Shown in pieces: positions 24,859 to 43,270 of a stretch of DNA of 64,000 bases (position 1 is the stretch's first letter; every line of letters starts with the position of its first letter). The stretch covers positions 3,782,001 to 3,846,000 of the forward strand of contig JAUCEF010000005.1 in assembly GCA_033558025.1 (NCBI GenBank), in the 5' to 3' direction. The position numbers and the translations under genes were made by a program. The notes under the pieces were generated by a model. That model worked only from the letters and a program-made list of their open reading frames with translations. It had not been told where the DNA came from and made no database searches. The stretch is from Phytophthora sp. 'mugwort'. Lineage: Eukaryota; Oomycota; Peronosporomycetes; Peronosporales; Peronosporaceae.

Positions 24859-25145
24859 ATGGCTAAGGACACCCAACGAGTTTTTTTTGCGGGGCTCAGG
24901 TTTAACGGGAAATTAGACAACTTCCAACGATGAAGGGACGCCGTCTGGCGCATCTGACAAGCTTGTCAAATCGCCGCCGCGTTACTGAGATTAAAGCCGG
25001 AGGAGCGCCACCGTCTCGGGTACGAAGATCTGCTGAGTCGGCCCATCCAAGTCGCAGAGCCAGGCGCTGATGCTCAAGATTAGGAACGTAATCAGCATGC
25101 TCTGGAGAAGGCATTCCTGGCTGAGCAGGAGTATGCCTAAGAGAG
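24859..25145 (+). pseudogene. Copia gag N-terminus of inner element, broken
   Basis: Begins 24 bp after the 5' LTR with MAKDTQRVFFAGLRFNGK, stops early at a TGA, then stays readable in the same general direction (RDAVWRI, LGYEDLLSRPIQVAEPG). The F-x-G-x-x-F-x-x-W-x-x-A pattern is that of Copia gag. Premature stops make it non-functional. Confidence 0.5.
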
Positions 25146-25425
25146 AAAGTGAATGATAATCTATTTAAAGATGATGTACCTATAGACATCAAGTACGAGA
25201 GGACACGCAGAACAGATCACAGATGGTGTGATCTGGGTATATAGTGCGATGATGATTGAAGGCAAAGGAATCGATGCCGCCCCGGACGCAGTCGGAAGGC
25301 GTGCTCACTTCCTAATTTGCCTCAGACTGAGCACATCGTTGAGAGTAAGTCATTTAGGAATAAAGGATAATTACAAACGTAGTGAGCCTCTACAGTGTTG
25401 AGCCATGTTAATATTTCAAGTAAAA

Positions 25426-26807
25426 TGAGCAAACTGAGTCAAAGTGTGACCGACAAACTGGCCTTTCACGGCAAGAAGGCCCTATTCGCTGGGTGGAATG
25501 ACAAGGTCAAGGCCCATCTGTTCGCGCTCAGTGATGCGTTAGTTGTGACCGAGCTTCAAGAGAAATGTCGCGTACCGATTGCTCGCAACGAAGATGCGCT
25601 AGTAAAAGAACCAGTCCTCGACGAACCAGGGCTAGGGGCTACGGGTGAATAAAAGGACGCGTACGAGCTGCAAAAGGCTTTCGTCAGGAAGCAATCGTCG
25701 TACATTAAGGATTTTCTGAACCTAACCCTTCCGGCGGGTTTTGTGGACGAGAGGCTGATGAAACGACCGGTGCACTAGATTTGGCGTGCGATTGAGAAAC
25801 GCTATGCCCTCAACACCGCGTCTGGAGTGGTAGAGCTGATGTAGAGCTTGGAAGCTATTGCAGCCTCTGATTTTAAGAGCGCTTCACACCTGCTCCAGCA
25901 ACTCAAGGCCACATGAGGCCAGACAAATCGGAACAGCGCCGAGGCGCTGAAAGTTGATCTGAATTCGCAGCAGATGATGCTGATCAAGATTCTGGCGGTC
26001 CTGCCCGGACACCTTTGAGGTTCAGCGGTCGCGTTTACGCCAGAAGAGTTCCCGCTGGAAAAGGTCGAGTCCACCCTCTGCGCAACCTTTGGGAGTAAGA
26101 GCAAGGCTGAAATCAAGATCTTGGGCAATGGTGCATCCGTGAACCACGTTAATGCTAAGGCGATCAAGCCTGCCAAAAACGTTGGATCGGCCCTAGGAAA
26201 AAGTAAGGCCACTTCCCAGCTGACGCAAGATTCGTATCAGATTTTGGGTGCAATGTCGTGCTACTATTGTGCTGGCGTCCACAATGACATCAGCGCCGGG
26301 CCGCATCTCAAGCACCAGTGCAGCAAGCGCAAGCAAAATGTCGACCAGTAGGTTTTCCGGCGCAGCATCTGGTCGTACCTATGTGCCGTAAAAAAAGCGT
26401 GAGGTGACGCTGAACCAACGCTAAAGATGACTGGCAAGGGAAAGTACCGCGCGAAATCCAAGGGGACGGAAAAGGAGCGGAAGACTGTGCCAACTCAGGA
26501 CTGTCTACCCATAGACGTGTCAGTTGATGCATGCAAGGCCGCGTCCACGAGTCCAACACCTTCGGTCAGTCCGCCCAACGGAGTGGAGCTCCCTCTAACT
26601 CCAGGAAGCGACTTGATTTTGTTTAACGCGCAAGAAACGGTCGAGCCAATGGGCTCTGTGTTTGATATTGGCGTCAACGGAGGGCGGGTGATTGGAATGG
26701 ACACCGAAGAAGCGTCAACGTCTCCGGGAGAACAGCTGATTGCAGGAGAGATCAGTCTTCAGATGATGCATCTGGAAGGCAAGGTACGGTCATTGTATCC
26801 TGCGGAA
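25426..26807 (+). pseudogene. Second Copia gag with zinc knuckle, decayed and truncated
   Basis: The frame starts MSKLSQSVTDKLAFHGKKAL, then FAGWNDKVKAHLFALSDALV, the core of Copia gag. After stops it continues as YIKDFLNLTLPAGFVDERL, IEKRYALNTASGVVELM and LLQQLKA, then a zinc knuckle (CYYCAGVHNDISAGPHLKHQC-like, four metal ligands near 26,257-26,320). A Thr/Ser/Pro-rich tail runs to 26,800. The related copy at 46.3-47.1 kb continues into a protease, but here the sequence breaks off at about 26,800 where viral DNA begins. The same TTTCAAGTA motif that follows the inner 5' LTR lies just upstream at 25,413, so a second, separate LTR probably ends there and this gag belongs to another Copia insertion. 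Confidence 0.65.
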
Positions 26808-26983
26808 AGCAGATCATGACGCCGACGGACGAGGACGCTTACCTAATGACCTTCGGCATCTTCCCCGGGGAGCCGCAACCAAGCGGCTACCTCAACCTCA
26901 GTAGTTCCAGGGACCAATACCTGTCGTACAAGAGCTCCTACATCACCAACGAGACGACTGTTACCATGTCAAACAATGTGTAA
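26808..26983 (+). pseudogene. Major capsid protein, extreme C-terminus only (arm A)
   Basis: The reading frame entering from the left edge begins QIMTPTDEDAYLMTFGIF and contains PQPSGYLNLSSS, ending TVTMSNNV and TAA. This is the C-terminal jelly-roll end of nucleocytoplasmic large DNA virus capsid proteins; the QPSG-x-x-N-x-S signature points to the p72-like (Asfarviridae) type. The rest of the gene lies in B', not here. About 58 codons. Confidence 0.75.
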
Positions 26984-27071
26984 TAATTTCCTCATTCGAT
27001 ACCTAAACTAGTTTGATTACGTCATCATATTCGTAGGATCATCTCGCGCCATTTTTTTGTAAATTGGAAAA

Positions 27072-28102
27072 ATGGAGGTGAGACTTGCGCGACTCGAAGA
27101 GTGCCTCAAGACGGCAGAAGCTAGGCCACTGCAGCGGAGGTGACTGCGAAGCAATGGCAAAAGCAAGCTGCCACTGCTGAGGCGCGGTCTTTCCGACTCG
27201 AAGAGCAAGTCACGACAGCACGAGCAGCGGTTACACGCGAGCAAGAGCGAGCTGCCACCGCCGAAGCTGCCACCGCTGAGGCGTTCCTCCAGGTCATTCG
27301 GCTGGAGGAAGGCTTGCTGGCGGCCAGCGCGGCTGCGATGTGGGAGCGAAACGAGAAAGAGCAAGCAAATACGCGCGCTGAAGAGTCTAACGTCCGCGCT
27401 GCAGAGGCCGACACACCCGCTGCTAACACGCGCAACGACACCTGCTACTTTGCTCAGTACGCTCGAGAACAAACGGATAAATTGCTCGAGATGCACAATC
27501 ATCTTAGTGGTAGCCATTACCGCTCGATCGAGGACCCGCGAGGCCCTAGCCGGCGGCCGGTCGCGGCGTTGCTCGACGCCTCGTTCTCCGAGTTCGTCCG
27601 AACAAACTCACTCGCTGTCTCCCGCGGGGTTCCCGCGCGTGTTCAAGATTGTGGAAGGTCAGGAAGGCCTCCACGTCCGAAACGAGCTCCGGAAGCTGAG
27701 AAAGAAGAATTGCGAGGTACTGGTACAGCCCGTGTACTTCGCCAACGGGATTCCTCTCCGCGCGAGCGTGGACAAACGTTTGGTGGCATGCGCGCAATCG
27801 CAACGAATGTACGTGTGTGTTCGTGTTTGCCAATATCGTGTAGGTCTATAAGCCTGTCAAGTCAACCACAACAACTACTTGTAATAGGAAGTACAAGCTG
27901 CGAAGTCGCGGAAGATATCGTCCGATACCTCCGTTTCGGCGTATTTGCGTTCCGCCCGAACAACAGAGCGCTCCGCAACCGCACACTCATCACCTTCTTC
28001 CAGGAAGGCATCATCGAAAGCCTACAAGCGACCCCAGACGACGACCTCCGCCCGTTTGAAACCGGAGACTTTATCCTGCGCGCCGATAACTACGCCGAAT
28101 AA
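27072..28102 (+). pseudogene. Ala/Glu-rich coiled-coil protein with unknown C-terminal domain, frameshifted (arm A)
   Basis: The ATG at 27,072 gives MEVRLARLEECLKTAEARP; a shift near 27,120 moves to the frame KQWQKQAATAEARSFRLEEQ. Heptad-like Ala/Glu/Arg repeats continue to about 27,480. A second shift near 27,600 leads to PRVFKIVEGQEGLHVRNEL, KKNCEVLVQPVYFANGIPLR, and the end reads EDIVRYLRFGVFAFRPNN and ETGDFILRADNYAE. Both shifts occur in the other arm too, so decay came first. A coiled coil followed by a compact domain resembles the layout of virus Bro/DUF3627-like proteins, but I cannot assign the domain. The mirrored copy is 37,502-38,532 (minus), differing by one residue (Asp/Gly). Confidence 0.5.
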
Positions 28103-28302
28103 GTCGAGGCTGAACGCTCTCGCGTCGCCGCGTCTTTCTGGCGACAGCTATCTCGACCGTTCAAGAACCCCAGACCCGAACTAATCCCACTCGTCGATTC
28201 CTCTTAAATATTATGGTTCTTGTTCCACTTCGTCAGAACTCCAGCATGTTGATCGCTGCTGTGCGCACGGAGCTGAACGGGTTCTTCATTTGAAAATGTG
28301 AA

Positions 28303-28515
28303 TTGCACCAACATGCAACGCCTCGCCGATTGAGCCAAGCCACCGACGACGCCGGCCGGTCGACGCCTGACCTGGAGGAACCTATCTCGCGTTCTCATAT
28401 ACTGGAGGAGATCCGCCACCGGCAACGCCGCAGCTTGCGCAACGAGCAAGACCCGATCAAGCAAGCGAAACATTCATTCGGTGACAACGAACAATACGAG
28501 CGAAAGCGCGAGTGA
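28303..28515 (+). CDS. Small charged ORF, 70 codons (arm A; mirrored at 37,089-37,301)
   Basis: Reads MHQHATPRRLSQATDDAG, then EEIRHRQRRSLRNEQDPIKQ and ends NEQYERKRE. Hydrophilic and Arg/Glu/Gln-rich. The opposite strand is also open (28,204-28,473), so coding strand and reality are uncertain. Two residues differ between the arms (Thr/Ala and Leu/Pro). Not recognised. Confidence 0.25.
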   Translation: MHQHATPRRLSQATDDAGRSTPDLEEPISRSHILEEIRHRQRRSLRNEQDPIKQAKHSFGDNEQYERKRE

Positions 28516-28683
28516 CCGAACGGTTATGAGTGAGGAGTTTGTCGGATCCTTTGCAAGCTGGTTCATTCAGAATTGCTCTCAGGGTCTCACCACGGCAATG
28601 TCGGAGATGACCATCGGCCCATGGATGAAATTTTTGACGAGTTGATTAGTTTGCGCGCGAACCACGCTGCTGAGCTAGTTCCG

Positions 28684-29593
28684 TCAACTCTGCGCTTCAA
28701 TCATCATCGGCACGCCTTTGCTTCCATATGCTCCGCCCGGGCCGCCTTGTATTCGGCGTGAGCCTCCGTTGCCTTTTGCTCGGTGGCGACGCGCCATTGG
28801 GTCGCGATCGCTTCTTTCATCTTCGCCTCCATCCAGCGCTTGTAGGCTTGGTGACGATCCTCGGTCGAGTTCCCCATGCTTGTCGTTGTCTTGGTTGAGA
28901 AATTGCGGGGTGAGATGGTGGTAGAGCAGCAGCCGTCGTCGTCGTTTCAGCCAGCCCAGGATCTTCAACGCAGCCACCAGTTGCACCGCGGAAATGGTTT
29001 TCAGCTCGTGGTGATCGTGCTCCCTCGCCCACCTGAACGCCTGGAACGGATAACGCTCGCAGACGTACTCAACGAATTCCTTGAGCCCGTTTCCATGGGC
29101 GATCGCCAGCGCCTTGGAGAAGTTCCAACGCTCGGAATGACAGCAGTTGAGCACGCTCTCGACGACCACGATGTCGCCATTGCTCACAACATGCTCCAGG
29201 ATTACCTCCTTGTTAAATGCCTTGAGCAATCCGAGTTGCAGTACTCCCTCGAGTAGACTTCGACGAATTGACAGGGCTGGCGGTGGGCCTTCGGTGCCGC
29301 CACCACATCGCCAGGGCCATTGCGCCTTTAACGGCGTCGGTGTTTCGCAGGCGGGCAAACGCCACGCGCATCGCGTCTATGTTATTATATGCAGCATCTG
29401 CAACCAGCGCCAATTCGGCTCTCTTCACGGTGCATGGCTGCATGCAAAGCAGCCACTCGAGCCTATGCAGATCATTTTTCTCCACAGCAGCACTTGTATC
29501 GTCCTCCAGCATGCCTTGGTACACTTGGTGAGGCGTATCCACCGAGTCGCGAATGAAGCGGTACGCGCGGTAAATTGCAGCTGCTGGCAGCAT
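28684..29593 (-). pseudogene. Ankyrin-like repeat protein, split by one extra base (arm A)
   Basis: Mirror copy of the intact reading frame at 36,012-36,920. Here GCCGCCACCACATCG replaces GCCGCCCCACATCG at about 29,296-29,310; the single extra base breaks the protein after ALAMW into a 5' part (29,593-29,213) and a 3' part (to 28,684). Confidence 0.6.
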
Positions 29594-29655
29594 CAAAACC
29601 TCGATCACTGATCGGAACAGCGCGGTTATATATTATATATGCATATTTTCCAGGT

Positions 29656-29889
29656 ATGAAATTAACAGCAAGCCGATGTACGTCTGCACTCGTGTTGCCA
29701 AAGCACTTTGCCAGTAGCGTAAATGGATGTTAGTCTGTACGGGGAAGTTCTTGTGGTCAATATAATCGGTACAAAATGGATCTTGAGAACCAAAAGATTT
29801 ATAACTGTTCTGGTTGTGGCTACAGTGCCGATCGCGATGAGAATGCTGCCAATCAAATTGATCAAAACATATTGTTGCTGTATGAATAG
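29656..29889 (+). pseudogene. TnpB/Fanzor-type C-terminal zinc ribbon, truncated (arm A)
   Basis: After an in-frame TAG at 29,731 the frame reads RGSSCGQYNRYKMDLENQ, then KIYNCSGCGYSADRDENAAN and QIDQNILLLYE, stop at 29,889. C-x-x-C-G-x-x-x-x-x-D-x-x-x-A-A is the hallmark end of IS605-family TnpB and of the eukaryotic/giant-virus Fanzor nucleases: a zinc ribbon followed by the last RuvC Asp (ADRDENAAN). The first Cys pair is reduced to SSCG. No upstream RuvC I/II or guide-RNA-binding part is present; the DNA upstream belongs to the ankyrin-like gene on the other strand. This is therefore a relic, present in both arms, with no nuclease activity expected. Confidence 0.65.
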
Positions 29890-30262
29890 CTACAAATTCT
29901 TCATCAGTATTGTACGTTACCTATGTATGCAACTCATTGCATGCTAACGTATTAAAGGTCGTGTGTCTTTACATAGAATTGCACAATTATATATATGACC
30001 TCCTGTAGCGGGCGTAGCTAAATCGTATGTATTTTTGCTTATTTGGCATGATATGGCGAGGTTCGATGCGAATGAAATGGGTAAAATATTTCCTTTTTGG
30101 TTTTCGACAGTAGCATACCACTAACGTGCGTTATGCTTACCTCTTAAGTATCTGAATTAATAAATTAAAATGCAAAATATCAGGACTAAGATATATATAC
30201 TTCGGCAACTACCTGCAAGCAGACTTCTCTATATTTGCCACATGAGTACGGGCGCAGTTCAG

Positions 30263-30556
30263 TTAGTGTCCAATGATGGTTAAGCTGCAGAGTACAGCCA
30301 TCAACAGGGGGCGTTGGTGTCGCGAGGCATCTATGGAAACATATTCATGAATTAACGTGAAAGCGTGTATCCCCCTAGTCCGCCTATAATCGGGCCTACG
30401 TCCTAGTAGGTGGTTGTATGTAACAGAGATGACAGTCTCTGCGCGATGCGTCAATTGACAAGTCAGGGCAATACGAATGAAAACGGTCAAGGTATATCCA
30501 GCAATGGAGTGCAGAGACCGTCGGCTATCTATGATAGTTGCTAACGACTGGGTCAT
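30263..30556 (-). CDS. Orphan 97-codon ORF (arm A)
   Basis: Begins MTQSLATIIDSRRSLHSIAG and ends RPLLMAVLCSLTIIGH, a hydrophobic C-terminus that could be a membrane anchor. Unchanged in both arms (other copy 35,049-35,342, plus), unlike neighbours that picked up frameshifts. No family recognised. A GTCTCTC-TATGC-GAGAGAC hairpin lies just upstream of its start (30,565-30,583). Confidence 0.35.
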   Translation of the reverse strand: MTQSLATIIDSRRSLHSIAGYTLTVFIRIALTCQLTHRAETVISVTYNHLLGRRPDYRRTRGIHAFTLIHEYVSIDASRHQRPLLMAVLCSLTIIGH

Positions 30557-30834
30557 TTTTGTGGGTCTCTCTATGCGAGAGACTTCATGTACAGTCTAGT
30601 CCAACACAAGTCTATTAACCATAGGTACGAGTGTTGCTCTATGTTGATCAGATGAATTGAAAAGTGCAATCTGGGAAGCATAGAGGCGCTGCAAAAGGGT
30701 GTAACGCGTATTCGCGTATGGACCAGCTTTTGCTGCCAAACAGCTACTTCGTGACAACGTCGCCGCGGTTAAGGCTCGTAAGGCTGCCGAAGGCGTGCCC
30801 GTGAGCTCTACTTCAACTACTCTTCGTTGTTCAT

Positions 30835-31190
30835 TAGCTCGGATGCTGACAGCACGGCCACGTTCTTCGTACAGGCCAAGGCTATTAATTGCGCTATGGA
30901 TTCATCAAATCGAAGTTGAACGAGGTTTCCGCAATCAAGATTGAGTCGGAAGAACAGTTCTTCAACTTGCTGATATCCGCCACGGAATACAGCTTCACTG
31001 CCTTTAACAAGGACGCAAGACACGAGTCACAGTTAATCAATGCGGCGAATAGTGATGGGTCTTTAACAATATGTTTCATTACGACTATTCAAACAATGTC
31101 GACTATGGCTTCATATACGCGTGTTTGACCAATCCACTGATTCAAGACCCTACCTACATGCAATTTTGCGCCGCGCACAAGTACGAATAA
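30835..31190 (+). pseudogene. Unrecognised broken frame upstream of the 291-codon ORF
   Basis: Plus-strand pieces read FIKSKLNEVSAIKIESEEQF then FFNLLISATEYSFTAFNKDA and, after a shift, MFHYDYSNNVDYGFIYACL and PTYMQFCAAHKYE before TAA at 31,188. The last piece is in frame with the next ORF across that TAA, so the two may have been one gene. No family recognised. Confidence 0.3.
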
Positions 31191-31211
31191 AGTGGATTAT
31201 GTTTCGATTGT

Positions 31212-32087
31212 TTGGACCGCTATCGGGTGGTGACGCGTAATTTGATTCCACTGATGAAGACACTACGCAAAGATCTATGCAGTATCTACTTTGTAGACAT
31301 CCTGTATGATCTGATACGATTTAAAAACCGCGATCTGTATGCTTTTATCACGTATTTGTTTAAGCAATATGGAGATGGATCAAGTTTCAAGACTTTTATT
31401 GCTGGCTTTGGTAAGAAGAAGACGCGTCGGCTATTAAATACAATGAATCGACAATTTCGACGCATAGGCTTCAAATTCGTGTCAAAGAAATACATGCCAG
31501 TGTATGCATACTGTGCGAACGTTCGAGTAGATTGTTTGGATCATGTGTATGACTACATGCTAAATCAAGGTCTGTCTATGTTTAAGACTGTACCCAGCGA
31601 GCATGTGGTAGTGGGGTATTGCTTGGGAGATGAATACAGAATTGATATCCTTTACACTCGTAGCGTGGTGGACTACTGTGGACATAGAAGATTTCAAATC
31701 GGTTCCCATACATTACTTGAAGGCCTAAACTTTGGATTTTACAAGGAGCGTTTAAACGCATATAAGAGTACCAACGTGCAAGACAACCGGATCAAGAAAG
31801 ACTTGAGAAAGATCTTCGCAGAGTTCAGCTTCAGCGGTCGGTCGGTGTTCACCAACAATATTGTTTACTCCGAAAATGATATTGTTATTGGATTCTTGAA
31901 GCAAAGCGATAACACGTTCCAGAACTTCAGACTTGACATTCACATCGAAACTATCATCACTAATTTTGCTGACATGGATCGGCTGCACTTTATCAAGCAT
32001 GACAAGTGGAACTCCGAAGATCAGGCGCACTATAAAACCTATTGCAATGGAACTTTTTTAGCACCTGGCTTATCTAAGATACTGTAG
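31212..32087 (+). CDS. Orphan ORF, 291 codons (first ATG at 31,254), unique centre
   Basis: The longest intact frame in the unique centre. It is AT-rich in codon use and Tyr/Phe/Asn/Asp-rich, unlike host genes. Segments: IPLMKTLRKDLCSIYFVDIL, KKKTRRLLNTMNRQFRRIGF, EHVVVGYCLGDEYRIDILYT, FAEFSFSGRSVFTNNIVYSE and FRLDIHIETIITNFADMDRL. No catalytic motif, signal peptide or membrane span is visible; mixed alpha/beta content is likely. The open frame starts at a non-ATG codon, so the true N-terminus may lie in the broken piece upstream. I do not recognise it; a giant-virus orphan is the best description. Confidence 0.5.
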   Translation: MDRYRVVTRNLIPLMKTLRKDLCSIYFVDILYDLIRFKNRDLYAFITYLFKQYGDGSSFKTFIAGFGKKKTRRLLNTMNRQFRRIGFKFVSKKYMPVYAYCANVRVDCLDHVYDYMLNQGLSMFKTVPSEHVVVGYCLGDEYRIDILYTRSVVDYCGHRRFQIGSHTLLEGLNFGFYKERLNAYKSTNVQDNRIKKDLRKIFAEFSFSGRSVFTNNIVYSENDIVIGFLKQSDNTFQNFRLDIHIETIITNFADMDRLHFIKHDKWNSEDQAHYKTYCNGTFLAPGLSKIL

Positions 32088-32234
32088 ACTATATGTTAAA
32101 TATCATGTATGCAATGCGTTCTGTTTCATTTCTGCAAATATGCAAACACTTTCCAAAAGTGGTAAGATCAAAGATGTTTTTTTCGGTTTGATAAAATTGT
32201 ATTACCACTTTACTGCTACAGAACGCGTGGTCGA

Positions 32235-33548
32235 TCAACACCCCTCTGGGAAGTTCTTGTTGAGGCGGCGGTTGATCTCCTCAAGCTCATTGGTCTGTGT
32301 GCGAAGCTCCCCAATGAGTCGGCCGCGGTCCTTCCCCTGAATTTCTCTTTTATTGATCTCAGCAGCGTGTTCGATACCGGCGATCTTCTGGCGTAGCTTC
32401 ATGTTCTTCAAGTTGCTTATCAACTGTAGTTGAAGCATGCTGACCTTGCTTTTTTCTTCGGTGCTGAACCAGAAGAACAGCGACCTTGGCTTGTCCGCTA
32501 ACAACTGCACTATGAATGCGCTCCTTGAGGACTTCACTCATACGCTCCAAGTCCTTAATATGCAGCTTGTATTCGTGATCTTGCTCATTTATTTCGCGAG
32601 CGCGAGCTTCTGATTGGACGGCCATGCTGCTGTTGTACTTGTCCGCGATCGTCTGCATGATGGACCGAATGAACTTGTAATTCTCCTTGACGAGGATAAC
32701 GAGTTCTTGCTCTTTGTTAAACGCGAAATGGTCACTCTCGCGAAGGCTACTTTAAACTGCGTTTTAGCCTCGCTGAGATAGTCGCTTGGAACGAAGATTA
32801 CAGTGTCTAGGATTGTTCCGTCGCCGAACGCTGAGCTGTGCTTGTAGACCCTTTCCTTGACTTTCCCAGTGCGTCCATAATTGAACACCTTCTTACCATC
32901 CTTACGTATGCTCGTGTCCACGAGGTACAAGCAGGCAAGATCATTTGGAACCAGCTTCATGAAAGCTTGCAGGAACGACTTGTCGACCTTGCAGAGCGTC
33001 GATAGCATGTTTTGTTTTTGCTTTACAGTACCATATGCCAGCGTGAAGACTTGCTTGTAAACCCAATCGCGAAACTCATTCGCCACGCGTGATCGTATGC
33101 TGATAAGCGCGTGCATCTAACCAGAAAATGTCAAGTAGACTTCATGCCATTTGTAACACAATCGCTTGTGTTCTTGTGAAGAGCGATGGTCATGTCTATG
33201 TAGAGAGGTGTCATTGTCGTGGGGATGTCCTTGTTTTTTTAGTCACTCTGCAAATTCCCGTGTAACACGGGATTCTGCAGAGTGAATTGAGAGAAGTCAA
33301 TACCATTATGATAGGAGTTGCGCACGTCTAGCTCGGTTTCAACAAACCATTCTTGTTCAAGTACGGTTCCAACGTCCTTCACCTTGAAAACAATTGCTTC
33401 CATAGTGCGATTGCCCCGTATCTTCACTTGGTAGTGCACACCACTTTTGTCCACGAAGAACGAGAAATCCTTGTCTTCGATCACAGAAGGCGCGGATGAT
33501 AGGAGCTCTCTTTTGCGATCTCAAGTAGTCGCGCAATATTTTTGTCAT
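32235..33548 (-). pseudogene. Bro-N/MSV199-type viral protein with coiled-coil tail, frameshifted
   Basis: Bro-N family proteins are DNA-binding proteins common in baculoviruses, ascoviruses, iridoviruses and other large DNA viruses. In order on the minus strand: DFSFFVDKSGVHYQVKIRG and AIVFKVKDVGTVLEQEWFV (33,484-33,239; the usual F-K-x-K-D-V core), a stop next to a hairpin, then HALISIRSRVANEFRDWVYK (from 33,116; the conserved R-S-R...F-x-x-W-V end of Bro-N). Next comes a GIY-YIG/T5orf172-like segment (ACLYLVDTSIRKDGKKVFNY, YGRTGKVKERVYKHSSAFGD). Further frameshifts near 32,740 and 32,460 lead into a coiled coil (KELERMSEVLKER-like, RREIQGKDRGRLIGEL-like). At least three lesions make it non-functional. 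Confidence 0.6.
33243..33284. other. Near-perfect 20-bp stem hairpin
   Basis: CACTCTGCAAATTCCCGTGT and AACACGGGATTCTGCAGAGTG pair over about 20 bp with two mismatched positions and almost no loop. It lies exactly at the stop that splits the Bro-N reading frame. It may be a transcription-end hairpin of the kind used by some giant viruses, or a local inverted duplication that broke the gene. Confidence 0.6.
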
Positions 33549-33554
33549 CCTTCA

Positions 33555-33965
33555 TCAGGCGTACATCGGATTGGGTGCGTACGACGGCTTCTCTTTTAGT
33601 TTGCACTTTTCCGCGTTCTTCTTGGTCACAAAGACGACTTGAAGGTTCTCCTCGTCGATGAAGCGCTTGACAGATCGCTTGTAACGCTTGGCGAAGTAGG
33701 TCTTGAACGCTGGGAACTGGAAAAGTAGGTCGACGTTCACGTAGATCTCGTCTCCCAGCTCGACTTCGTACTTCGCGTGCTCGTCATCGTCCTCGGCTAT
33801 CTTGATTCGGTTAGTTCCGCTCTCGCTCGCCGCGTCGCTGGAGCGCATGCTACTCATGGTGTTTCCGACACTTCGAACGTGATGCCAGAAGAAGTGCGCC
33901 AGATTCATGTCCATCACTCGCTGCTTACAGTACGCGGCAACATTCGCAGCAACATTCGGTTTCAA
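33555..33965 (-). CDS. Unknown viral-type ORF upstream of the Bro-N relic
   Basis: Ends KCKLKEKPSYAPNPMYA. Contains MDMNLAHFFWHHVRSVGNTM and YEVELGDEIYVNVDLLFQF, FAKRYKRSVKRFIDEENLQV. The first ATG gives about 119 residues; the open frame extends further up from a non-ATG codon. It could be the N-terminal (MSV199/KilA-N-like) part of the same protein or a separate gene; the gap to the next frame is only 7 bp. Not firmly recognised. Confidence 0.4.
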   Translation of the reverse strand: MKPNVAANVAAYCKQRVMDMNLAHFFWHHVRSVGNTMSSMRSSDAASESGTNRIKIAEDDDEHAKYEVELGDEIYVNVDLLFQFPAFKTYFAKRYKRSVKRFIDEENLQVVFVTKKNAEKCKLKEKPSYAPNPMYA

Positions 33966-33975
33966 AGCCTTGCGC

Positions 33976-34003
33976 TGAAAGTTATATTTTCATATAACTT
34001 TCA
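33976..34003. other. Perfect 12-bp stem hairpin, 4-nt loop
   Basis: TGAAAGTTATAT, loop TTTC, ATATAACTTTCA. It sits immediately upstream of the 33,555-33,965 frame on that strand, so it is either a promoter-side structure or the end signal of a lost upstream gene. Confidence 0.6.
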
Positions 34004-34154
34004 ACTTGTCATGTTAATGAGCAAGAGTATCTCCACTTGGGCGGAATGCTTTCCACTTGTATAAATCATCGGTTCCATGTCTCGTGGACTCACAACAAAT
34101 GGAAGTTAGTTTTATTTGTACCCAACGATCTTCACAGCCATGAGCAGTGTGAAC

Positions 34155-34336
34155 GTTCCTTCACGCGAATCGTACCGAGGGATGTACTATCTATGATGGA
34201 CTGGTTGCTTTGGGTGGTCATCTTGATGTAGTTCAATTAAGAAATGGCTTCACGCTAATCGTACTGATGGATGTACTACCCACGCGATGGGCCTGACTGC
34301 TTGTGGTGGTCATCTTAATGTAGTTCAATGAACTTG
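34155..34336. repeat. Tandem repeat, two copies of about 91 bp
   Basis: CTTCACGCGAATCGTACCGAGGG...GGTGGTCATCTTGATGTAG (from about 34,158) and CTTCACGCTAATCGTACTGATGG...GGTGGTCATCTTAATGTAG (from about 34,249), both followed by TTCAAT. Roughly 80% similar. Function unknown. Confidence 0.6.
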
Positions 34337-34535
34337 GTTGCGGAATTGTGGATTGGAAAGCATCGCTAAATACTATGTATTTTTTTTTGTTTTGGGAGCA
34401 ACATCATAAAATTGACAGTCTGTTACTGCGCTTGAACTAACTAAGATAACAGCCAGCGAATCTGCTGTGAAGATAGCTAGCTACCTCTAATCACGAAAAC
34501 AAAAATAAAGAAACCCTTCCTTTTTTCATGGCTCG

Positions 34536-34846
34536 TTTAGGGGTCTATCGAAAAGCATTGGCTGTGACCTTCAACCATGAGTTTGCCCAGCTTGATGTCC
34601 TCCGGTTTGACGGTAACACGTTTCGCATGGATCGCTAGGATGTTTGAATATTCAATAGCCCCACTGCATGATTTCAGTGGCTTCCTGAAGAGCTTCTAGT
34701 TCCCATCCGGTAATGTGCAGATCCGTTTTGTAGTACTGCAGGATCTTGCGCACTAGACGTGAGAATGGTAACTTAGGAATCAATAGATTATACGTCTTTT
34801 GATAGTTGCGAATCTGTCGAAGTACAACTAAAACAACGCGGCGACG
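34536..34846 (-). pseudogene. Histone H3-like gene relic in the viral island
   Basis: Minus-strand frame from about 34,846: VVLVVLRQIRNYQKTYNLLI, PKLPFSRLVRKILQYYKTDL, ELEALQEATEI. This follows the alpha-N and alpha-1/alpha-2 sequence of histone H3 (R-x-I-x-x-Y-Q-K...LIPKLPF-R-LVR-I...KTDL...ALQEA). After one shift VGLL appears, and after another NILAIHAKRVTVKPEDIKLG, the H3 C-terminus (AIHAKRVT-x-x-P-x-DI-x-L). The copy ends LMVEGHSQCFSIDP and TAA at 34,536. Two frameshifts within about 25 bp inactivate it. The N-terminal tail is cut at or just inside the A'/centre junction (34,837). Divergence from conventional H3 (e.g. ILQYYKTDLHITGWELEA) is far greater than any host H3, so a virus-encoded histone is the better explanation than a processed host copy. 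Confidence 0.75.
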
Positions 34847-35048
34847 TTGTCACGAAGTAGCTGTTTGGCCAGCAAAAGCTGGTCCATACGCGAATACGCG
34901 TTACACCCTTTTGCAGCGCCTCTATGCTTCCCAGATTGCACTTTTCAATTCATCTGATCAACATAGAGCAACACTCGTACCTATGGTTAATAGACTTGTG
35001 TTGGACTAGACTGTACATGAAGTCTCTCGCATAGAGAGACCCACAAAA

Positions 35049-35342
35049 ATGACCCAGTCGTTAGCAACTATCATAGATAGCCGACGGTCTCTGCACTCCA
35101 TTGCTGGATATACCTTGACCGTTTTCATTCGTATTGCCCTGACTTGTCAATTGACGCATCGCGCAGAGACTGTCATCTCTGTTACATACAACCACCTACT
35201 AGGACGTAGGCCCGATTATAGGCGGACTAGGGGGATACACGCTTTCACGTTAATTCATGAATATGTTTCCATAGATGCCTCGCGACACCAACGCCCCCTG
35301 TTGATGGCTGTACTCTGCAGCTTAACCATCATTGGACACTAA
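35049..35342 (+). CDS. Orphan 97-codon ORF (arm A')
   Basis: Identical mirror copy of the 30,263-30,556 frame. Confidence 0.35.
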   Translation: MTQSLATIIDSRRSLHSIAGYTLTVFIRIALTCQLTHRAETVISVTYNHLLGRRPDYRRTRGIHAFTLIHEYVSIDASRHQRPLLMAVLCSLTIIGH

Positions 35343-35715
35343 CTGAACTGCGCCCGTACTCATGTGGCAAATATAGAGAAGTCTGCTTGCAGGTAGTTGC
35401 CGAAGTATATATATCTTAGTCCTGATATTTTGCATTTTAATTTATTAATTCAGATACTTAAGAGGTAAGCATAACGCACGTTAGTGGTATGCTACTGTCG
35501 AAAACCAAAAAGGAAATATTTTACCCATTTCATTCGCATCGAACCTCGCCATATCATGCCAAATAAGCAAAAATACATACGATTTAGCTACGCCCGCTAC
35601 AGGAGGTCATATATATAATTGTGCAATTCTATGTAAAGACACACGACCTTTAATACGTTAGCATGCAATGAGTTGCATACATAGGTAACGTACAATACTG
35701 ATGAAGAATTTGTAG

Positions 35716-35949
35716 CTATTCATACAGCAACAATATGTTTTGATCAATTTGATTGGCAGCATTCTCATCGCGATCGGCACTGTAGCCACAACCAGAACAG
35801 TTATAAATCTTTTGGTTCTCAAGATCCATTTTGTACCGATTATATTGACCACAAGAACTTCCCCGTACAGACTAACATCCATTTACGCTACTGGCAAAGT
35901 GCTTTGGCAACACGAGTGCAGACGTACATCGGCTTGCTGTTAATTTCAT
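35716..35949 (-). pseudogene. TnpB/Fanzor-type zinc ribbon, truncated (arm A')
   Basis: Mirror copy of 29,656-29,889, with the same in-frame stop. Confidence 0.6.
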
Positions 35950-36011
35950 ACCTGGAAAATATGCATATATAATATATAACCGCGCTGTTCCGATCAGTGA
36001 TCGAGGTTTTG

Positions 36012-36920
36012 ATGCTGCCAGCAGCTGCAATTTACCGCGCGTACCGCTTCATTCGCGACTCGGTGGATACGCCTCACCAAGTGTACCAAGGCATGCTGGA
36101 GGACGATACAAGTGCTGCTGTGGAGAAAAATGATCTGCATAGGCTCGAGTGGCTGCTTTGCATGCAGCCATGCACCGTGAAGAGAGCCGAATTGGCGCTG
36201 GTTGCAGATGCTGCATATAATAACATAGACGCGATGCGCGTGGCGTTTGCCCGCCTGCGAAACACCGACGCCGTCAAAGGCGCAATGGCCCTGGCGATGT
36301 GGGGCGGCACCGAAGGCCCACCGCCAGCCCTGTCAATTCGTCGAAGTCTACTCGAGGGAGTACTGCAACTCGGATTGCTCAAGGCATTTAACAAGGAGGT
36401 AATCCTGGAGCATGTTGTGAGCAATGGCGACATCGTGGTCGTCGAGAGCGTGCTCAACTGCTGTCATTCCGAGCGTTGGAACTTCTCCAAGGCGCTGGCG
36501 ATCGCCCATGGAAACGGGCTCAAGGAATTCGTTGAGTACGTCTGCGAGCGTTATCCGTTCCAGGCGTTCAGGTGGGCGAGGGAGCACGATCACCACGAGC
36601 TGAAAACCATTTCCGCGGTGCAACTGGTGGCTGCGTTGAAGATCCTGGGCTGGCTGAAACGACGACGACGGCTGCTGCTCTACCACCATCTCACCCCGCA
36701 ATTTCTCAACCAAGACAACGACAAGCATGGGGAACTCGACCGAGGATCGTCACCAAGCCTACAAGCGCTGGATGGAGGCGAAGATGAAAGAAGCGATCGC
36801 GACCCAATGGCGCGTCGCCACCGAGCAAAAGGCAACGGAGGCTCACGCCGAATACAAGGCGGCCCGGGCGGAGCATATGGAAGCAAAGGCGTGCCGATGA
36901 TGATTGAAGCGCAGAGTTGA
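36012..36920 (+). CDS. Ankyrin-like repeat protein, intact copy (arm A')
   Basis: About 302 residues from the ATG at 36,012. The middle shows helix-pair units of about 30 residues: AVEKNDLHRLEWLLCMQP, LVADAAYNNIDAMRVAFARL, EVILEHVVSNGDIVVVESVL and ALAIAHGNGLKEFVEYVCER. The alternation of A-x-x-x-G/N-x-[LI] and hydrophobic helices resembles the degenerate ankyrin repeats abundant in giant viruses and oomycetes. The last 60 codons (after about 36,730) are Arg/Gly/Asp-rich and probably not genuine, since an overlapping frame reads better there. An F-box or other adaptor domain was not seen. In giant viruses such proteins often bind host ubiquitin machinery; no such link can be shown here. Confidence 0.5.
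   Translation: MLPAAAIYRAYRFIRDSVDTPHQVYQGMLEDDTSAAVEKNDLHRLEWLLCMQPCTVKRAELALVADAAYNNIDAMRVAFARLRNTDAVKGAMALAMWGGTEGPPPALSIRRSLLEGVLQLGLLKAFNKEVILEHVVSNGDIVVVESVLNCCHSERWNFSKALAIAHGNGLKEFVEYVCERYPFQAFRWAREHDHHELKTISAVQLVAALKILGWLKRRRRLLLYHHLTPQFLNQDNDKHGELDRGSSPSLQALDGGEDERSDRDPMARRHRAKGNGGSRRIQGGPGGAYGSKGVPMMIEAQS
36727..36900 (+). CDS. Overlapping 58-codon ORF, helical and charged
   Basis: Begins MGNSTEDRHQAYKRWMEAKM, continues TQWRVATEQKATEAHAEY and ends EHMEAKACR. Its composition (Ala/Glu/Lys/Arg, predicted helix) looks more protein-like than the overlapping tail of the ankyrin-like frame. It may be the true end of that protein after a frameshift, or a separate small gene. The mirror copy is at 28,704-28,877 (minus). 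Confidence 0.3.
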   Translation: MGNSTEDRHQAYKRWMEAKMKEAIATQWRVATEQKATEAHAEYKAARAEHMEAKACR

Positions 36921-37501
36921 CGGAACTAGCTCAGCAGCGTGGTTCGCGCGCAAACTAATCAACTCGTCAAAAATTTCATCCATGGGCCGATGGTCATCTC
37001 CGACATTGCCGTGGTGAGACCCTGAGAGCAATTCTGAATGAACCAGCTTGCAAAGGATCCGACAAACTCCTCACTCATAACCGTTCGGTCACTCGCGCTT
37101 TCGCTCGTATTGTTCGTTGTCACCGAATGAATGTTTCGCTTGCTTGATCGGGTCTTGCTCGTTGCGCAAGCTGCGGCGTTGCCGGTGGCGGATCTCCTCC
37201 GGTATATGAGAACGCGAGATAGGTTCCTCCAGGTCAGGCGTCGACCGGCCGGCGTCGTCGGTGGCTTGGCTCAATCGGCGAGGCGCTGCATGTTGGTGCA
37301 ATTCACATTTTCAAATGAAGAACCCGTTCAGCTCCGTGCGCACAGCAGCGATCAACATGCTGGAGTTCTGACGAAGTGGAACAAGAACCATAATATTTAA
37401 GAGGAATCGACGAGTGGGATTAGTTCGGGTCTGGGGTTCTTGAACGGTCGAGATAGCTGTCGCCAGAAAGACGCGGCGACGCGAGAGCGTTCAGCCTCGA
37501 C

Positions 37502-38532
37502 TTATTCGGCGTAGTTATCGGCGCGCAGGATAAAGTCTCCGGTTTCAAACGGGCGGAGGTCGTCGTCTGGGGTCGCTTGTAGGCTTTCGATGATGCCTTC
37601 CTGGAAGAAGGTGATGAGTGTGCGGTTGCGGAGCGCTCTGTTGTTCGGGCGGAACGCAAATACGCCGAAACGGAGGTATCGGACGATATCTTCCGCGACT
37701 TCGCAGCTTGTACTTCCTATTACAAGTAGTTGTTGTGGTTGACTTGACAGGCTTATAGACCTACACGATATTGGCAAACACGAACACACACGTACATTCG
37801 TTGCGATTGCGCGCATGCCACCAAACGTTTGTCCACGCTCGCGCGGAGAGGAATCCCGTTGGCGAAGTACACGGGCTGTACCAGTACCTCGCAATTCTTC
37901 TTTCTCAGCTTCCGGAGCTCGTTTCGGACGTGGAGGCCTTCCTGACCTTCCACAATCTTGAACACGCGCGGGAACCCCGCGGGAGACAGCGAGTGAGTTT
38001 GTTCGGACGAACTCGGAGAACGAGGCGCCGAGCAACGCCGCGACCGGCCGCCGGCTAGGGCCTCGCGGGTCCTCGATCGAGCGGTAATGGCTACCACTAA
38101 GATGATTGTGCATCTCGAGCAATTTATCCGTTTGTTCTCGAGCGTACTGAGCAAAGTAGCAGGTGTCGTTGCGCGTGTTAGCAGCGGGTGTGTCGGCCTC
38201 TGCAGCGCGGACGTTAGACTCTTCAGCGCGCGTATTTGCTTGCTCTTTCTCGTTTCGCTCCCACATCGCAGCCGCGCTGGCCGCCAGCAAGCCTTCCTCC
38301 AGCCGAATGACCTGGAGGAACGCCTCAGCGGTGGCAGCTTCGGCGGTGGCAGCTCGCTCTTGCTCGCGTGTAACCGCTGCTCGTGCTGTCGTGACTTGCT
38401 CTTCGAGTCGGAAAGACCGCGCCTCAGCAGTGGCAGCTTGCTTTTGCCATTGCTTCGCAGTCACCTCCGCTGCAGTGGCCTAGCTTCTGCCGTCTTGAGG
38501 CACTCTTCGAGTCGCGCAAGTCTCACCTCCAT
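37502..38532 (-). pseudogene. Ala/Glu-rich coiled-coil protein, frameshifted (arm A')
   Basis: Mirror copy of 27,072-28,102 with the same frameshifts; Gly replaces Asp in the segment AALLGASFSEF. Confidence 0.5.
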
Positions 38533-38620
38533 TTTTCCAATTTACAAAAAAATGGCGCGAGATGATCCTACGAATATGATGACGTAATCAAACTAGTTTA
38601 GGTATCGAATGAGGAAATTA

Positions 38621-39154
38621 TTACACATTGTTTGACATGGTAACAGTCGTCTCGTTGGTGATGTAGGAGCTCTTGTACGACAGGTATTGGTCCCTGGAAC
38701 TACTGAGGTTGAGGTAGCCGCTTGGTTGCGGCTCCCCGGGGAAGATGCCGAAGGTCATTAGGTAAGCGTCCTCGTCCGTCGGCGTCATGATCTGCTCGCC
38801 GCCGAACCGCAGCGGCAGATACGAGTTGAAGAAGGCGCCCGTGCGCGCCTCGTAGATAGTGGTGCCACCCGACTCGAAGGAGATCTTGTCGACCGCGGGC
38901 GTCGTTTTGGAGTATTAGTACGCCGGGGTGTACGCCAGCGACGTGGTACCGCCAGTAGGGATGATCGAAGCGTACTTGGTCTCGTTGTAGGCGTTGACGT
39001 CGTTCAGACGCCACGTCTCCGCGCGGTTCTCGTTCGTCTCGTTTCACAGCGGGCGGAAGCGGATGTACAAGCTCTCCACGGCGTGCTTGATCTCGCCGAC
39101 ATCCACACTGTCGAAGGCCTTGTGCAGGATTCGCAGCTTCTTGTAAGCAGTCAC
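38621..39154 (-). pseudogene. Asfarvirus p72-like major capsid protein, C-terminal part with stops (A'-B)
   Basis: This is the only place where the capsid fragment is contiguous. In frame from about 39,154 it reads VTAYKKLRILHKAF, ESLYIRFRPL then TGA, NETNENRAETWRLNDVNAYN, TSLAYTPAY then TAA, FFNSYLPLRFGGEQI, PQPSGYLNLSSS and ends at TAA 38,623-38,621. The two premature stops occur at identical positions in B', so they predate the inverted duplication. Only the second jelly roll (about 175 codons) is present; full capsid proteins of this type are about 600-650 residues. The SYLPLRFGG...TP...QPSG order fits the p72-like group better than the phycodnavirus/iridovirus group. No functional capsid can be made from it. 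Confidence 0.78.
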
Positions 39155-39315
39155 CAGTAAGGCAAACGCGTCATGTACGAAAATCTACATTTTGCATTCG
39201 GTCATATTTGTGATACACACAACTATATAGCGCTAGATATAGCAATCATGGCAGATTCAATAGTAAAGCAGTTTATATCAGCGGCTCTCTTATGTGTTGT
39301 CGTAGTTTGTATCGT
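38803..39315 (+). repeat. Inverted repeat arm B (513 bp)
   Basis: Reverse complement of 39,406-39,918 with seven base differences and no indel (about 98.6% identity). Contains the upstream part of the capsid fragment and the start of a small membrane-protein ORF. Confidence 0.93.
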
Positions 39316-39400
39316 GATAATTATTGTAGCATGGCAGCTAGGAGAGAAGTACTCCAAATGTGATATATTATTAATAAGGAGCTATATTATTATATTATAA
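39248..39400 (+). CDS. Small single-span membrane protein ORF
   Basis: Fifty codons: MADSIVKQFISAALLCVVVV then CIVIIIVAWQLGEKYSKC and a hydrophobic end. One clear transmembrane span after a short polar head. It starts in arm B and runs through the spacer; the mirrored start in B' (minus, from 39,473) soon meets stops because the spacer is not duplicated. Divergent to the capsid fragment. Small membrane proteins are common in large DNA viruses; no specific family is recognised. Confidence 0.4.
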   Translation: MADSIVKQFISAALLCVVVVCIVIIIVAWQLGEKYSKCDILLIRSYIIIL

Positions 39401-39405
39401 AGTAT
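39316..39405. other. 90-bp AT-rich spacer between B arms
   Basis: Rich in A+T, especially its right half (ATATATTATTAATAAGG, TATATTATTATATTATAA), and not itself a palindrome. It sits at the centre of a 1.1-kb inverted repeat, where a resolved hairpin-telomere junction would be expected. Confidence 0.6.
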
Positions 39406-39918
39406 ACGATACAAACTACGACAACACAAAAGAGAGCCGCTGATATAAACTGCTTTACTATTGAATCTGCCATGATTGCTATATCTAGCGCTATATAGTT
39501 GTGTGTATCACAAATATGACCGAATGCAAAATGTAGATTTTCGTACATGACGCGTTTGCCTTACTTGTGACTGCTTACAAGAAACTGCGAATCCTGCACA
39601 AGGCCTTCGACAATGTGAATGTCGGCGAGATCAAGCACGCCGTGGAGAGCTTGTACATCCGCTTCCGCCCGCTGTGAAACGAGACGAACGAGAACCGCGC
39701 GGAGACGTGGCGTCTGAACGACGTCAACGCCTACAACGAGACCAAGTACGCTTCGATCATCTCTACTGGCGGTACCACGTCGCTGGCGTACACCCCGGCG
39801 TACTAATACTCCAAAACGACGCCCGCGGTCGACAAGATCTCCTTCGAGTCGGGCGGCACCACTATCTACGAGGCGCGCACGGGCGCCTTCTTCAACTCGT
39901 ATCTGCCGCTGCGGTTCG
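39406..39918 (-). repeat. Inverted repeat arm B' (513 bp)
   Basis: Partner of arm B. It ends abruptly in the capsid coding sequence after CTGCGGTTCG, matching the B outer edge at 38,803. Confidence 0.93.
39570..39918 (+). pseudogene. Major capsid protein fragment (arm B')
   Basis: Copy of the upstream part of the fragment above, with the same two stop codons (after RFRPL and after YTPAY). It breaks off after LPLRF at the island's right edge; the missing continuation is the arm-A fragment at 26,808. Confidence 0.75.
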
Positions 39919-40170
39919 TATAGCAACCGGTATTAACTCGCGGCACGTGGTGTCCGATACGCAGAACGAGAGAACTCCGGCTGTAGGGCCACCGGCTAAA
40001 TGAGCAATTCGGCTGTTAGAGCGCGACTTCTCGGTCCCGTTTTTTCCTATACGGATTCTAAGTCGGATCGGCTATAAGCTTGTACGACTATAAGAGCAGC
40101 AACGATTGACTGTCAAGAGCACCACAGCCAGTTACAACGCGGTTTCCCTCGCCTCATTTCTGCAGTCATC
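39919..40170. other. Unassigned DNA between viral island and pogo relic
   Basis: About 250 bp with no gene and no match that I can see to the Copia or viral sequence. It may be the 5' end of the pogo element. Confidence 0.4.
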
Positions 40171-41414
40171 ATGCCGTCCTCACGCACACCGTACACGCGG
40201 GAGAATCTGAGTGTTCTGGAAAGAATATGCTTCGGCGACACAGAAAGGCTCATCCAACGCTCGCACAAGGAAAAATGCAACGAGAGGATTTTATTTCGCT
40301 TTCATGGATTCAGCGCTTTAAGAAGAGACACGGACCATTTAGTTGCATGTGCTTCACTGTGATCTTTCCTCAGTCGACACCAGCGAGATTGCTCGACACC
40401 GAGCTGAATTTATGGAGCTATTTCTCCGTCGGACGTGCTAACATGGACGAAACAGCACTGTCTTACCGGATGCTACCTATTCAAAATCTAGCTACGGAAA
40501 AAATCGCAGGTCGGAAGAAAGATAAAACCCGCATAACGGTCGGTAAATCTGAATGGGAGTGAAAAGCTGACGCCGGTCATCATCAATCGATACGAGCGAC
40601 CCCGATGCTTTAACGACATGGACGTGAATCAGCTGAGAATCCATTCTTTCGCGAACAAGAAAGCGTTTGTGACTTTTGATGTGTTCGTCAAATGGCTACG
40701 CTTGTTTACTCTTCGCATGCATGACGGCAAAAATTTTACTCCTCGTGCACAACGCCCCAGGACACGCACACATCGAGCTCTCTAATAGGCGCGTTCATTT
40801 TCTTCTCCCCAACACTACAACAATGCTACAGCCGGTGGATGCCGGCATCATCAGAAACTTCAAGCTACACTACAAGAAACGGGTTGTCCAGTGGCTTGTG
40901 GATCAATCTAGCTTAACTGTACGGTTGGATCTGTTGACAGCTATCAATCCCAGTGGACGCCTGGGACGCAGTCACCTCAGAGGTACGCCACTGCTAGATG
41001 CGCACACGGATCATCACGGCAACAATGGGAGCCGCTGTAGAGCAGGATAGCGAGCCGCGAAGGATGAACGACTTGCATGAGCTGGACGTGCTGATTTCGC
41101 AGCTCTCATTGGATGACGCAATGAACGCAGAGGCGTACGTCGCCGTGGACGATATGCTTTTGGAACAGGCCAACAGTGTTATGACTAATGGCACGTACTG
41201 ACCGATGAGGACGACAGTTCTACCTAAGATGACCAGAAAATGCTCTTCTCACACACCAGGAAGCTTTGATTCACGCAGAACAGTTCCCGGTATACTGTTC
41301 GCGATGGGTAGCTGCTCGGCCAACATAAAGGAAGCAATATGCGTCAGCCGGATGATGAAAGTCGCATCGAAGAAGCAAACGCGGATCACAGATCACTTCG
41401 CCTCCAAGCAGTAG
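40171..41414 (+). pseudogene. pogo/Tigger-type DDE transposase relic
   Basis: Pogo-family transposases combine a CENP-B-like helix-turn-helix with a DDE catalytic domain. Visible in order: a CENP-B-type segment (DFISLSWIQRFKKRHG, about 40,280), first catalytic region NMDETALSYRMLP, GRKKDKTRITVG, then after a shift PVIINRYERPRCFND and ANKKAFVTFDVFVKWLRLF, then LLLVHNAPGHAHIELSNRRV (second catalytic region with His in place of the usual Asp) and FLLPNTTTMLQPVDAGIIRN. At least three frameshifts and a changed catalytic residue show it is dead. Terminal inverted repeats were not located. Confidence 0.75.
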
Positions 41415-41689
41415 TTGCGATTCTACATAGTAAGTTCCATGTTCTAGTCGGGGGGTGAGAGTGGGGTGGTACTCTTTTAACCGAATATACTTATAAGAGC
41501 GTGGCGTTTCCCGTGGGTCAGATGTGGTCTTTATATTCGGAGGTCTCTATAAAATGCTGAAAACGTGCCTTTGGTAAAATCACAGCATCAAGCGATGTAC
41601 TTGCAGCACCTACTGAATCAGTGGGAGAAACAAATTCCCGACAAAAGTTTGAACAAAGCGTATAAGCATTTAAAGAGAAGCGAGGATTA

Positions 41690-43270
41690 GCGAATGCAGT
41701 GGGAGCAGCTGCTAAACCGCCAAAGCGACCACGTCGTGAGACAAACGACCGGCTCGATTCGGAGACTACATGTGCTTCCAGACACAATTGAATAAGGCCT
41801 TTGCGGAAGACACGGCACACAAACAAAAATTCCGATCCCGCGGAATCTAGCAAAAGCGTTGAGCGGGCCATATAGAAAAAGTGGCGACAGGCACAAGATC
41901 TTGAGTTCGACTCGGTTTTTTTTTTGATAGACAATGACACGTGGAAACTCGTACAGCTACAACCTGGTAGAAAGGCATTACCATGTCACTGGGTACTCGT
42001 GGTTAAGTACCACGCGAATGGTGTCGTAAAACGGTTTAAGGCACGACTTGTTGCACAAGGGGATCACCAAAGTTTGGTGTCGACTATGACGCAGTCTATG
42101 CACATGTGGCTAGTCTCACTACGAGTTGTTCTAGCTATCGGCACCATATTGGACCGCCATATCACCAGATGGATGTTCATTCTGCGTTTCTGAACGGGGC
42201 AATGGATGAAGATGTTCGGATTTATATGCGACAGCCACCTGGATATCATGCTCATGGCAAAGAAGGGTTCTTAATGTAAACTTCAGAAGTGTATATACGA
42301 GCTCAAGCAAGCGCCCAGAATTTGGTACAACGTACTTCACCACTTTCCGACTCTACTGGGTTTTGTACGATGCAACAAAGAGTTCTGGATCTATGTACAT
42401 GAAGTGGGAGATGAATTGGTCATCATTGTGGTATATGTCGATGACCCGACGATTATGTCGAAAAGCAAGCGACTGATCAACAAAGTTAAAGCGGAGAAGA
42501 CGATGTCTATCTCACAACATCAGTATATATTAGAGTTGCTGAAGAAGTACAAAGTTGAGAATAGCTCAGTAGCAGCGGCACCTCAAGTCACAGGCCTTGG
42601 GCTAGAATCTTAAATCAAGATGACTGCACAGCAAATTGCAGCTCAGAGATTTGATTACCGAGGATTGTTGGGATCGCTACAGTATCTAGTCCGGCGGCAC
42701 ACGACCGGATATTGCGAATGCAGTGAGGGAATTGAGCAAATATATTTCATGCTACAACAACACGCATTAGGAGGCAGCAAAAAGAGTGCTAAAATACTTG
42801 AAAGGGGCGTGAACGTACGGTCTGGCCCTTGATGGAAAATCGAGTGCCGTGACTAACGAAGTGTACGCTAACGCGAGCTTCGCGTGTCAGTCGAAAGAAC
42901 GTAAATCGATCACAGGGTATGTGACTAAAACGGCAGGCTGCAGCATATCGTGTTGTAATAGCAAACAAGGTGCGTTTCCCTTTCCACCGGAACTTATCGC
43001 GTGGAGTGAAGGTGCAAAAGATAGCGAATGGTTGTGGCACTTGCTATCGGAAATGCGTTTTCACCAACAAAGCCTGTGCAAGTATGTTGCGATAGCAGGT
43101 CAGCTATCAGCATTACAAAGAATCCTGGCAACCATAAAGCTAGCAAGCACATTCAAGTAAAGTTTCTGTTTACTAGATATTTGGTAGAAGAAGGACGCCT
43201 TGTCGATAAATACTATCCGACTGCAAGCATGTCAGTGGATATTCTGACAGAGGCTCTTCCTCCAACCTAG
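41690..43270 (+). pseudogene. Copia reverse transcriptase/RNase H of inner element, decayed
   Basis: Reads DNDTWKLVQLQPGRKALPCH, VVKYHANGVVKRFKARLVAQ (start of Copia reverse transcriptase), then the active-site block VIIVVYVDDPTIMSKSK (YVDD intact, about 42,435), QYILELLKKYKVENSSV, DYRGLLGSLQYL, and the RNase H part RKSITGYVTKTAG, VCCDSRSAISITKNPGNHKA and HIQVKFLFTRYLVEEGRLVD. Several frameshifts separate these. It ends 75 bp before the 3' LTR, the normal Copia arrangement. Integrase and protease of this element are missing, presumably lost when the viral DNA entered or by later deletion. Confidence 0.85.

Follow-up and report, generated by a model that had tools for sequence, protein, structure and literature searches.

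An old endogenous giant-virus fragment in Phytophthora sp. 'mugwort' with permuted, inverted arms that probably share a single break point in a capsid remnant

Introduction

How does an island of giant-virus DNA in an oomycete genome come to end, on both sides, at almost the same place in the same gene? The window analysed here is a stretch of 64,000 nucleotides on contig C5 of the Phytophthora sp. 'mugwort' assembly (86 Mb in 154 contigs), in which two pairs of inverted arms lie between host flanks and the outer ends of the island correspond to positions 6 bp apart inside a capsid remnant. The sequence-only reading of this DNA had proposed that the island is a circular permutation of one circle or concatemer unit, cut open once at integration. 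The permuted order and the single break are retained in the present analysis; a viral circle or concatemer unit opened at integration is not. The favoured account, to which a probability of roughly 0.55 is assigned, is that an old endogenous giant-virus fragment was rearranged in the host through fold-back duplication, formation of a circle, one break and insertion into a dispersed repeat.

Results and Discussion

Architecture of the island

The island begins with arm A (26808..30767, plus strand, 3960 bp), which runs from a remnant of a first capsid gene (capsid-1) to the N-terminal part of a second capsid remnant. Through this second remnant it is continuous with a single-copy part of 4069 bp (30768..34836, plus strand), the last bases of which (34829-34836) are filler-like. 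At the joint designated q (34828..34837), the single-copy part meets arm A' (34837..38796, minus strand, 3960 bp), the inverted copy of A. A' is contiguous with arm B (38803..39315, plus strand, 513 bp) by way of the site designated p (38797..38802), 6 bp that are preserved here but absent or changed at each outer end of the island. A 90-bp single-copy spacer (39316..39405), presumably a fold-back loop, then leads to arm B' (39406..39918, minus strand, 513 bp), the inverted copy of B, which ends at p. Self-comparison of the window yields 4 substitutions and 2 one-base indels between A and A', and 7 substitutions over the 513 bp of B and B'. It also maps the outer end of A (26808) to 38796 and that of B' (39918) to 38803, with the six bases of p in between; the arm coordinates given by the sequence-only reading, and its placing of the outer ends 6 bp apart inside the capsid frame, proved correct to the base. 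The six bases at the left junction (26802..26807), possible microhomology or filler, match the missing six at 4/6 positions, and consequently the true loss at p may be anything from 0 to 6 bp. The A'-B join was found once in the assembly, without a second copy.

The capsid-1 remnant (38624..39178, minus strand) derives from a Nucleocytoviricota major capsid protein, carries two in-frame stops and runs in a single frame straight across p in A'-B. It corresponds to residues 305-495 of an intact capsid protein encoded on contig C14, with 28% identity, and no match was found for the first ~300 capsid residues of this remnant. Against the Pfam profile Capsid_NCLDV, the window piece scored 33.0 bits (cut-off 34.8); a second profile run gave 34.7 bits, and 35.1 with the neighbours in frame. 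The intact 557-aa major capsid ORF of contig C14 (stretch L053, 5994-7667, minus strand) reached 86.9 bits against the same profile, and a Phytophthora cactorum protein shares 86% identity with it across 90% of the ORF. Within the best 120 of its 1677 matches, those with an organism name come from P. cactorum (86%), P. nicotianae (74%) and Globisporangium ultimum (64%). When viral contigs were scanned, neither the C14 capsid protein nor the capsid piece of the window retrieved a confirmed relative; the asfarvirus affinity of oomycete capsid genes is taken from the sections of PMC8204020 drawn on here. With a hallmark capsid gene in the island and host flanks on either side, the locus is an endogenous virus element.

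The N-terminus of the second capsid (residues 22 on) spans 30767, the boundary between A and the single-copy part, as a match that is weak alone (E 0.009). At 30735-30940 a match to residues 475-523 comes soon after this N-terminus, with the middle lost. On contig C11, the second capsid is retained to about residue 298, so that C11 and the window have lost different parts. A C-terminal tail remnant of a further capsid gene lies at 30296-30394 in the window. Pfam gave nothing above cut-off for the ORFs of the arms and the single-copy part that were tried, the capsid piece and a zinc-ribbon fragment of a nuclease excepted, and comparison with PHROGs returned weak matches only (E 0.06 or worse). 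The zinc-ribbon fragment, the C-terminal piece of a TnpB-like nuclease, is located at 35716-35868 (minus strand) with an inverted copy in A and scored 30.0 bits against Pfam Cas12f1-like_TNB (cut-off 26.3); it may be linked to eukaryotic or viral Fanzor proteins. Among the ORFs of the single-copy part are one of 298 aa and one of 175 aa with two unnamed relatives; the 175-aa ORF may resemble the T5orf172-domain family, a match that Pfam did not give. For the 325-aa ORF of the arms, one relative is listed, from Phytophthora boehmeriae (40%). A 315-aa ORF of A' was considered as an intact gene and rejected: contig C11 has the base absent from A', which makes A' the derived copy at this position.

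Host flanks and junctions

The left host flank (25131..26801, plus strand) is a copy of a dispersed repeat family, with homology from about 25131, and breaks off at 26801. The family, which may be retrotransposon-like, gave no match in Pfam. It occurs at 16 other genomic places, 11 of which match up to 26800/26801, and all 11 aligned copies extend beyond the break with sequence absent from the window copy. A transposon end at the left junction was considered and dropped, the break sitting inside a repeat that continues in these 11 copies. Immediately to the right of the island, the rest of the broken repeat was not found; further on there are small pieces at 42342-42907 and, at about 46416-48749, a separate copy that is more diverged. 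The right host flank (39919..41551, plus strand) opens with 62 bases without match, followed from 39981 by a remnant related to three pieces on contig C1; a Tc5-type DNA-binding match in this flank stayed far under cut-off (14.8 of 22.2 bits). Inspection by eye recognised neither a target-site duplication nor a transposon end at the junctions. The joint at q has about 8 filler bases and the break at p a loss of 0-6 bases, whereas the 62 unmatched bases on the right host side may be host or filler. The host junctions fit end joining with loss or rearrangement of host DNA. The host genes near the island, at 2033-5635 and 10275-14819 (minus strand), encode a phospholipid-translocating P-type ATPase and a myosin with a CH domain.

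Ancestral order and a single break

The order in which these parts originally stood can be read from the joins. The A'-B join is taken as ancestral, because the capsid frame is unbroken across p in A'-B only. The join between A and the single-copy part is likewise taken as ancestral, since the capsid N-terminus runs across 30767 and the same continuity occurs on contig C11, there inside a much longer capsid match. The remaining join, q, is on this comparison derived: on C11 the end of the single-copy part continues into different sequence, not A', and pieces of that continuation adjoin sequence resembling the single-copy part on contig C4 as well, which is itself rearranged. An interpretation of q as a viral genome end was dropped, as C11 continues beyond it into sequence that C4 has too; a terminal-inverted-repeat transposon on the C11 side was dropped too, only short inverted pairs of 12-22 nt being found there. 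A DDE transposase fragment lies further along on that side. The C4 locus (2825687-2827957, stretches L042 and L035) contains about 81 bp twice in opposite orientation, by which rearrangement of such DNA may be recurrent.

The island is thus permuted with respect to the ancestral order and has one opening point, the arrangement expected from a circular intermediate. Taking into account that two independent, uniformly placed ends on a 4479-bp arm would fall within 6 bp of each other with a chance of about 0.3%, it is highly probable that the outer ends of A and B' are the two sides of a single break. A relative carrying only one of the arms had been named in advance as evidence against this interpretation. 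Contig C11 is such a relative in part, since it holds part of A and part of the single-copy part and has no A'; it is without the capsid site p and is therefore silent on the shared break.

Proposed history and the role of a circle

In the favoured account, a break near 39316-39405 would have allowed the strand to fold back and copy itself, giving the order A'-B-spacer-B'-A-single-copy part around the 90-bp spacer. The single-copy spacer between inverted copies that such an event leaves is present; B/B' homology reaches the spacer edge, so that the primer site is indistinguishable and inverted microhomology is unmeasurable. The outer end of the single-copy part would then have been linked to that of A' through the ~8 filler bases, closing a putative circle of about 13 kb of which the joint itself is seen. 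A single break in the capsid-1 remnant of the B'-A copy, with the loss of 0-6 bp, would have opened this molecule at the break point that both outer ends share. The broken ends would have been joined, through a few bases of microhomology or filler at the observed junctions, to host DNA within the dispersed repeat, and the remainder of that repeat copy would have been lost or displaced. Finally, the long arms A and A' may have been evened by gene conversion, and the short arms B and B' less so, as their unequal divergence suggests. A donor locus with the unpermuted ancestral order was not found in this assembly, and the empty host site is not seen, which counts against this account; the donor may have been lost or may reside on another haplotype.

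The single break is better supported than the circle, and a host-made circle is favoured by a narrow measure. It offers the simplest history, because removal of the island as a circle restores a join of the A'-B type and an uninterrupted host site. The circle leaves no separate trace, since a linear palindrome (A'-B-spacer-B'-A-single-copy part) broken at p, with its pieces rejoined in swapped order, gives the identical sequence. Accordingly, the closest competitor dispenses with the circle altogether: such a palindrome, or shattered chromatids, would have been broken at p and the pieces captured swapped between the same host ends, by chromothripsis-like repair or by replication template switching. 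This route accounts for the shared break equally and predicts identical joints at q, at the spacer and at both host junctions; the short possible microhomology at the left junction is in its favour. It demands three simultaneous end joins against the one closure and one insertion of the circle, which is an argument of parsimony only, and we regard it as clearly less probable than the circular history, though a serious alternative.

Unequal divergence of the arms

The two pairs of arms have not diverged to the same extent. A and A' differ by 4/3960 substitutions (0.10%) and B and B' by 7/513 (1.36%; Fisher p = 5.5e-5), and the difference persists when indels are included (6/3960 vs 7/513, p = 2.3e-4). 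This counts against one uniform event, because a joint origin of the arms predicts equal rates, and the favoured history does not predict it either without gene conversion or a mutational difference. It speaks for an explanation in which A and B' arose from independent inverted duplications at different times and their outer ends met by coincidence. The thirteen-fold difference in divergence switches at p, as such an origin would have it, and the 768 bp of A next to p contain no substitution relative to A', which has a probability of 2.8e-5 at the B/B' rate. However, the 6-bp coincidence that independent duplications require has the chance of about 0.3% given above, and conversion confined to A/A' blocks would also switch exactly at p, where the blocks end. 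Gene conversion or exchange between the long arms, acting up to p only, is what we infer from the gap; it would stop at p because A/A' homology ends there in the present arrangement. An older B/B' duplication is possible, and independent origins as a whole are unlikely.

Decay before duplication

The condition of the viral genes at the time of duplication bears on whether the circle was opened when a virus integrated. The two in-frame stops of the capsid-1 remnant are identical in B and B', and the capsid-tail fragment has the same stop in A, A' and contig C11. Segments related to the single-copy part occur on further contigs, and five ORFs of this part were compared with four stretches (on contigs C11, C16, with two, and C1): 11/20 combinations aligned with a score of 100 or more, some of the ORFs overlapping so that the rows are not independent. 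At least one frame-breaking indel was present in all 11 aligned comparisons. Substitutions summed over codon positions 1/2/3 were 154/165/186, with variation among single rows (for example 4/15/9 and 39/25/40), and the 315-aa frame compared with C11 gave 17/20/17. Gaps aside, divergence from C11 is 5.8% for A and 7.0% for the single-copy part, against 0.10% between A and A'. Of the six differences between A and A', C11 covers four, two derived in A' and two in A; both of those outside C11 are substitutions.

The shared stops, together with near-even substitution over codon positions between copies, indicate that decay preceded duplication, and that the DNA was probably already decaying and resident in the host long before the arms arose; host residence is our interpretation of the shared stops, with which decay inside a virus is also compatible. 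The claim that the circle was opened at virus integration therefore fails on timing, as B and B' share two stops, A, A' and C11 another, and the copies diverge near-neutrally. Direct integration of a viral circle or concatemer unit that had 4.48-kb inverted arms and was opened once in the capsid gene would produce the same permuted order and single break. Such a unit would be expected to carry intact viral genes when the arms were made, and the stops common to both arms indicate otherwise; the near-neutral divergence between host copies far exceeds that between arms, and the arm ends fall inside two capsid remnants. Furthermore, a search for inverted repeats of at least 60 bp at other capsid loci and loci resembling the single-copy part returned 0 pairs in any of the 9 stretches; each was searched by itself, so that a pair across two neighbouring stretches would escape (the ~81-bp pieces on C4 lie in separate stretches). 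This origin is accordingly considered improbable, slightly more so than independent duplications. An assembly artefact around long near-identical inverted repeats is the least credible explanation: the arms are 99.9% identical over 3.96 kb and exchange between A and A' could flip the single-copy part, in the cell or in assembly, leaving its orientation uncertain, yet the arm differences are scattered along the length, both ends enter different host DNA, and such a flip leaves p at the outer ends unchanged.

Implications

A more specific proposal, which we advance tentatively and consider doubtful as it stands, is that the host mobilised endogenous giant-virus DNA as an extrachromosomal circle with an inverted duplication and then re-inserted it. 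If true, neither virus nor transposase would be needed for relic viral genes to be copied and moved, and the partial copies on contigs C11, C16, C1 and C4, whose boundaries differ, would be products of the same traffic. The analysis as a whole tells virus integration apart from later shuffling of viral relics; if every such fragment were tallied as a virus insertion of its own, infections would be overcounted. The island also offers an example, resolved to the base, in which to ask whether DNA other than transposons is moved by excised circles in oomycetes.

Comparison with Known Systems

Endogenous asfarvirus-like giant-virus loci have been described in Phytophthora parasitica and other oomycetes (PMC8204020). 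From the portions of that paper used here, the island resembles these loci: a giant-virus capsid gene lies amid transposable elements where genes are sparse, and viral genes are truncated. The paper also lists a T5orf172-domain protein. The terms 'inverted', 'circular' and 'palindrom' are absent from its main text. The titles and abstract openings of the literature surveyed describe no permuted, inverted-duplicated viral relic, a statement limited to those parts of the publications and not to all that is in print.

Inverted copies with a spacer are a signature of fold-back duplication in the available extract of PMC3907307. The single-copy spacer at the presumed loop is common to those duplications and to the island. 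In contrast, the island has a spacer of 90 bp, where theirs mostly measure a few kb, and is an interstitial insertion.

The closest parallel to the proposed circle is found in human segmental duplications mediated by circular DNA, for which permuted order with single closing and opening points, together with small changes at the junctions, is treated as the signature of circular intermediates (PMC7450558, in the passages relied on here, which also cite cattle translocations). Unlike these duplications, the island unit comes from a virus and includes an inverted duplication of its own, and its permutation is inferred from an internal copy, the donor not having been found in this assembly. Like them, it has a permuted order that one closing point and one different opening point would explain; the filler at q and the small loss at p are compatible with the short indels or microhomology of their joints, next to the 62 unmatched bases on the right host side. 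A breakpoint of the island lies within an interspersed repeat, where most of theirs are also located.
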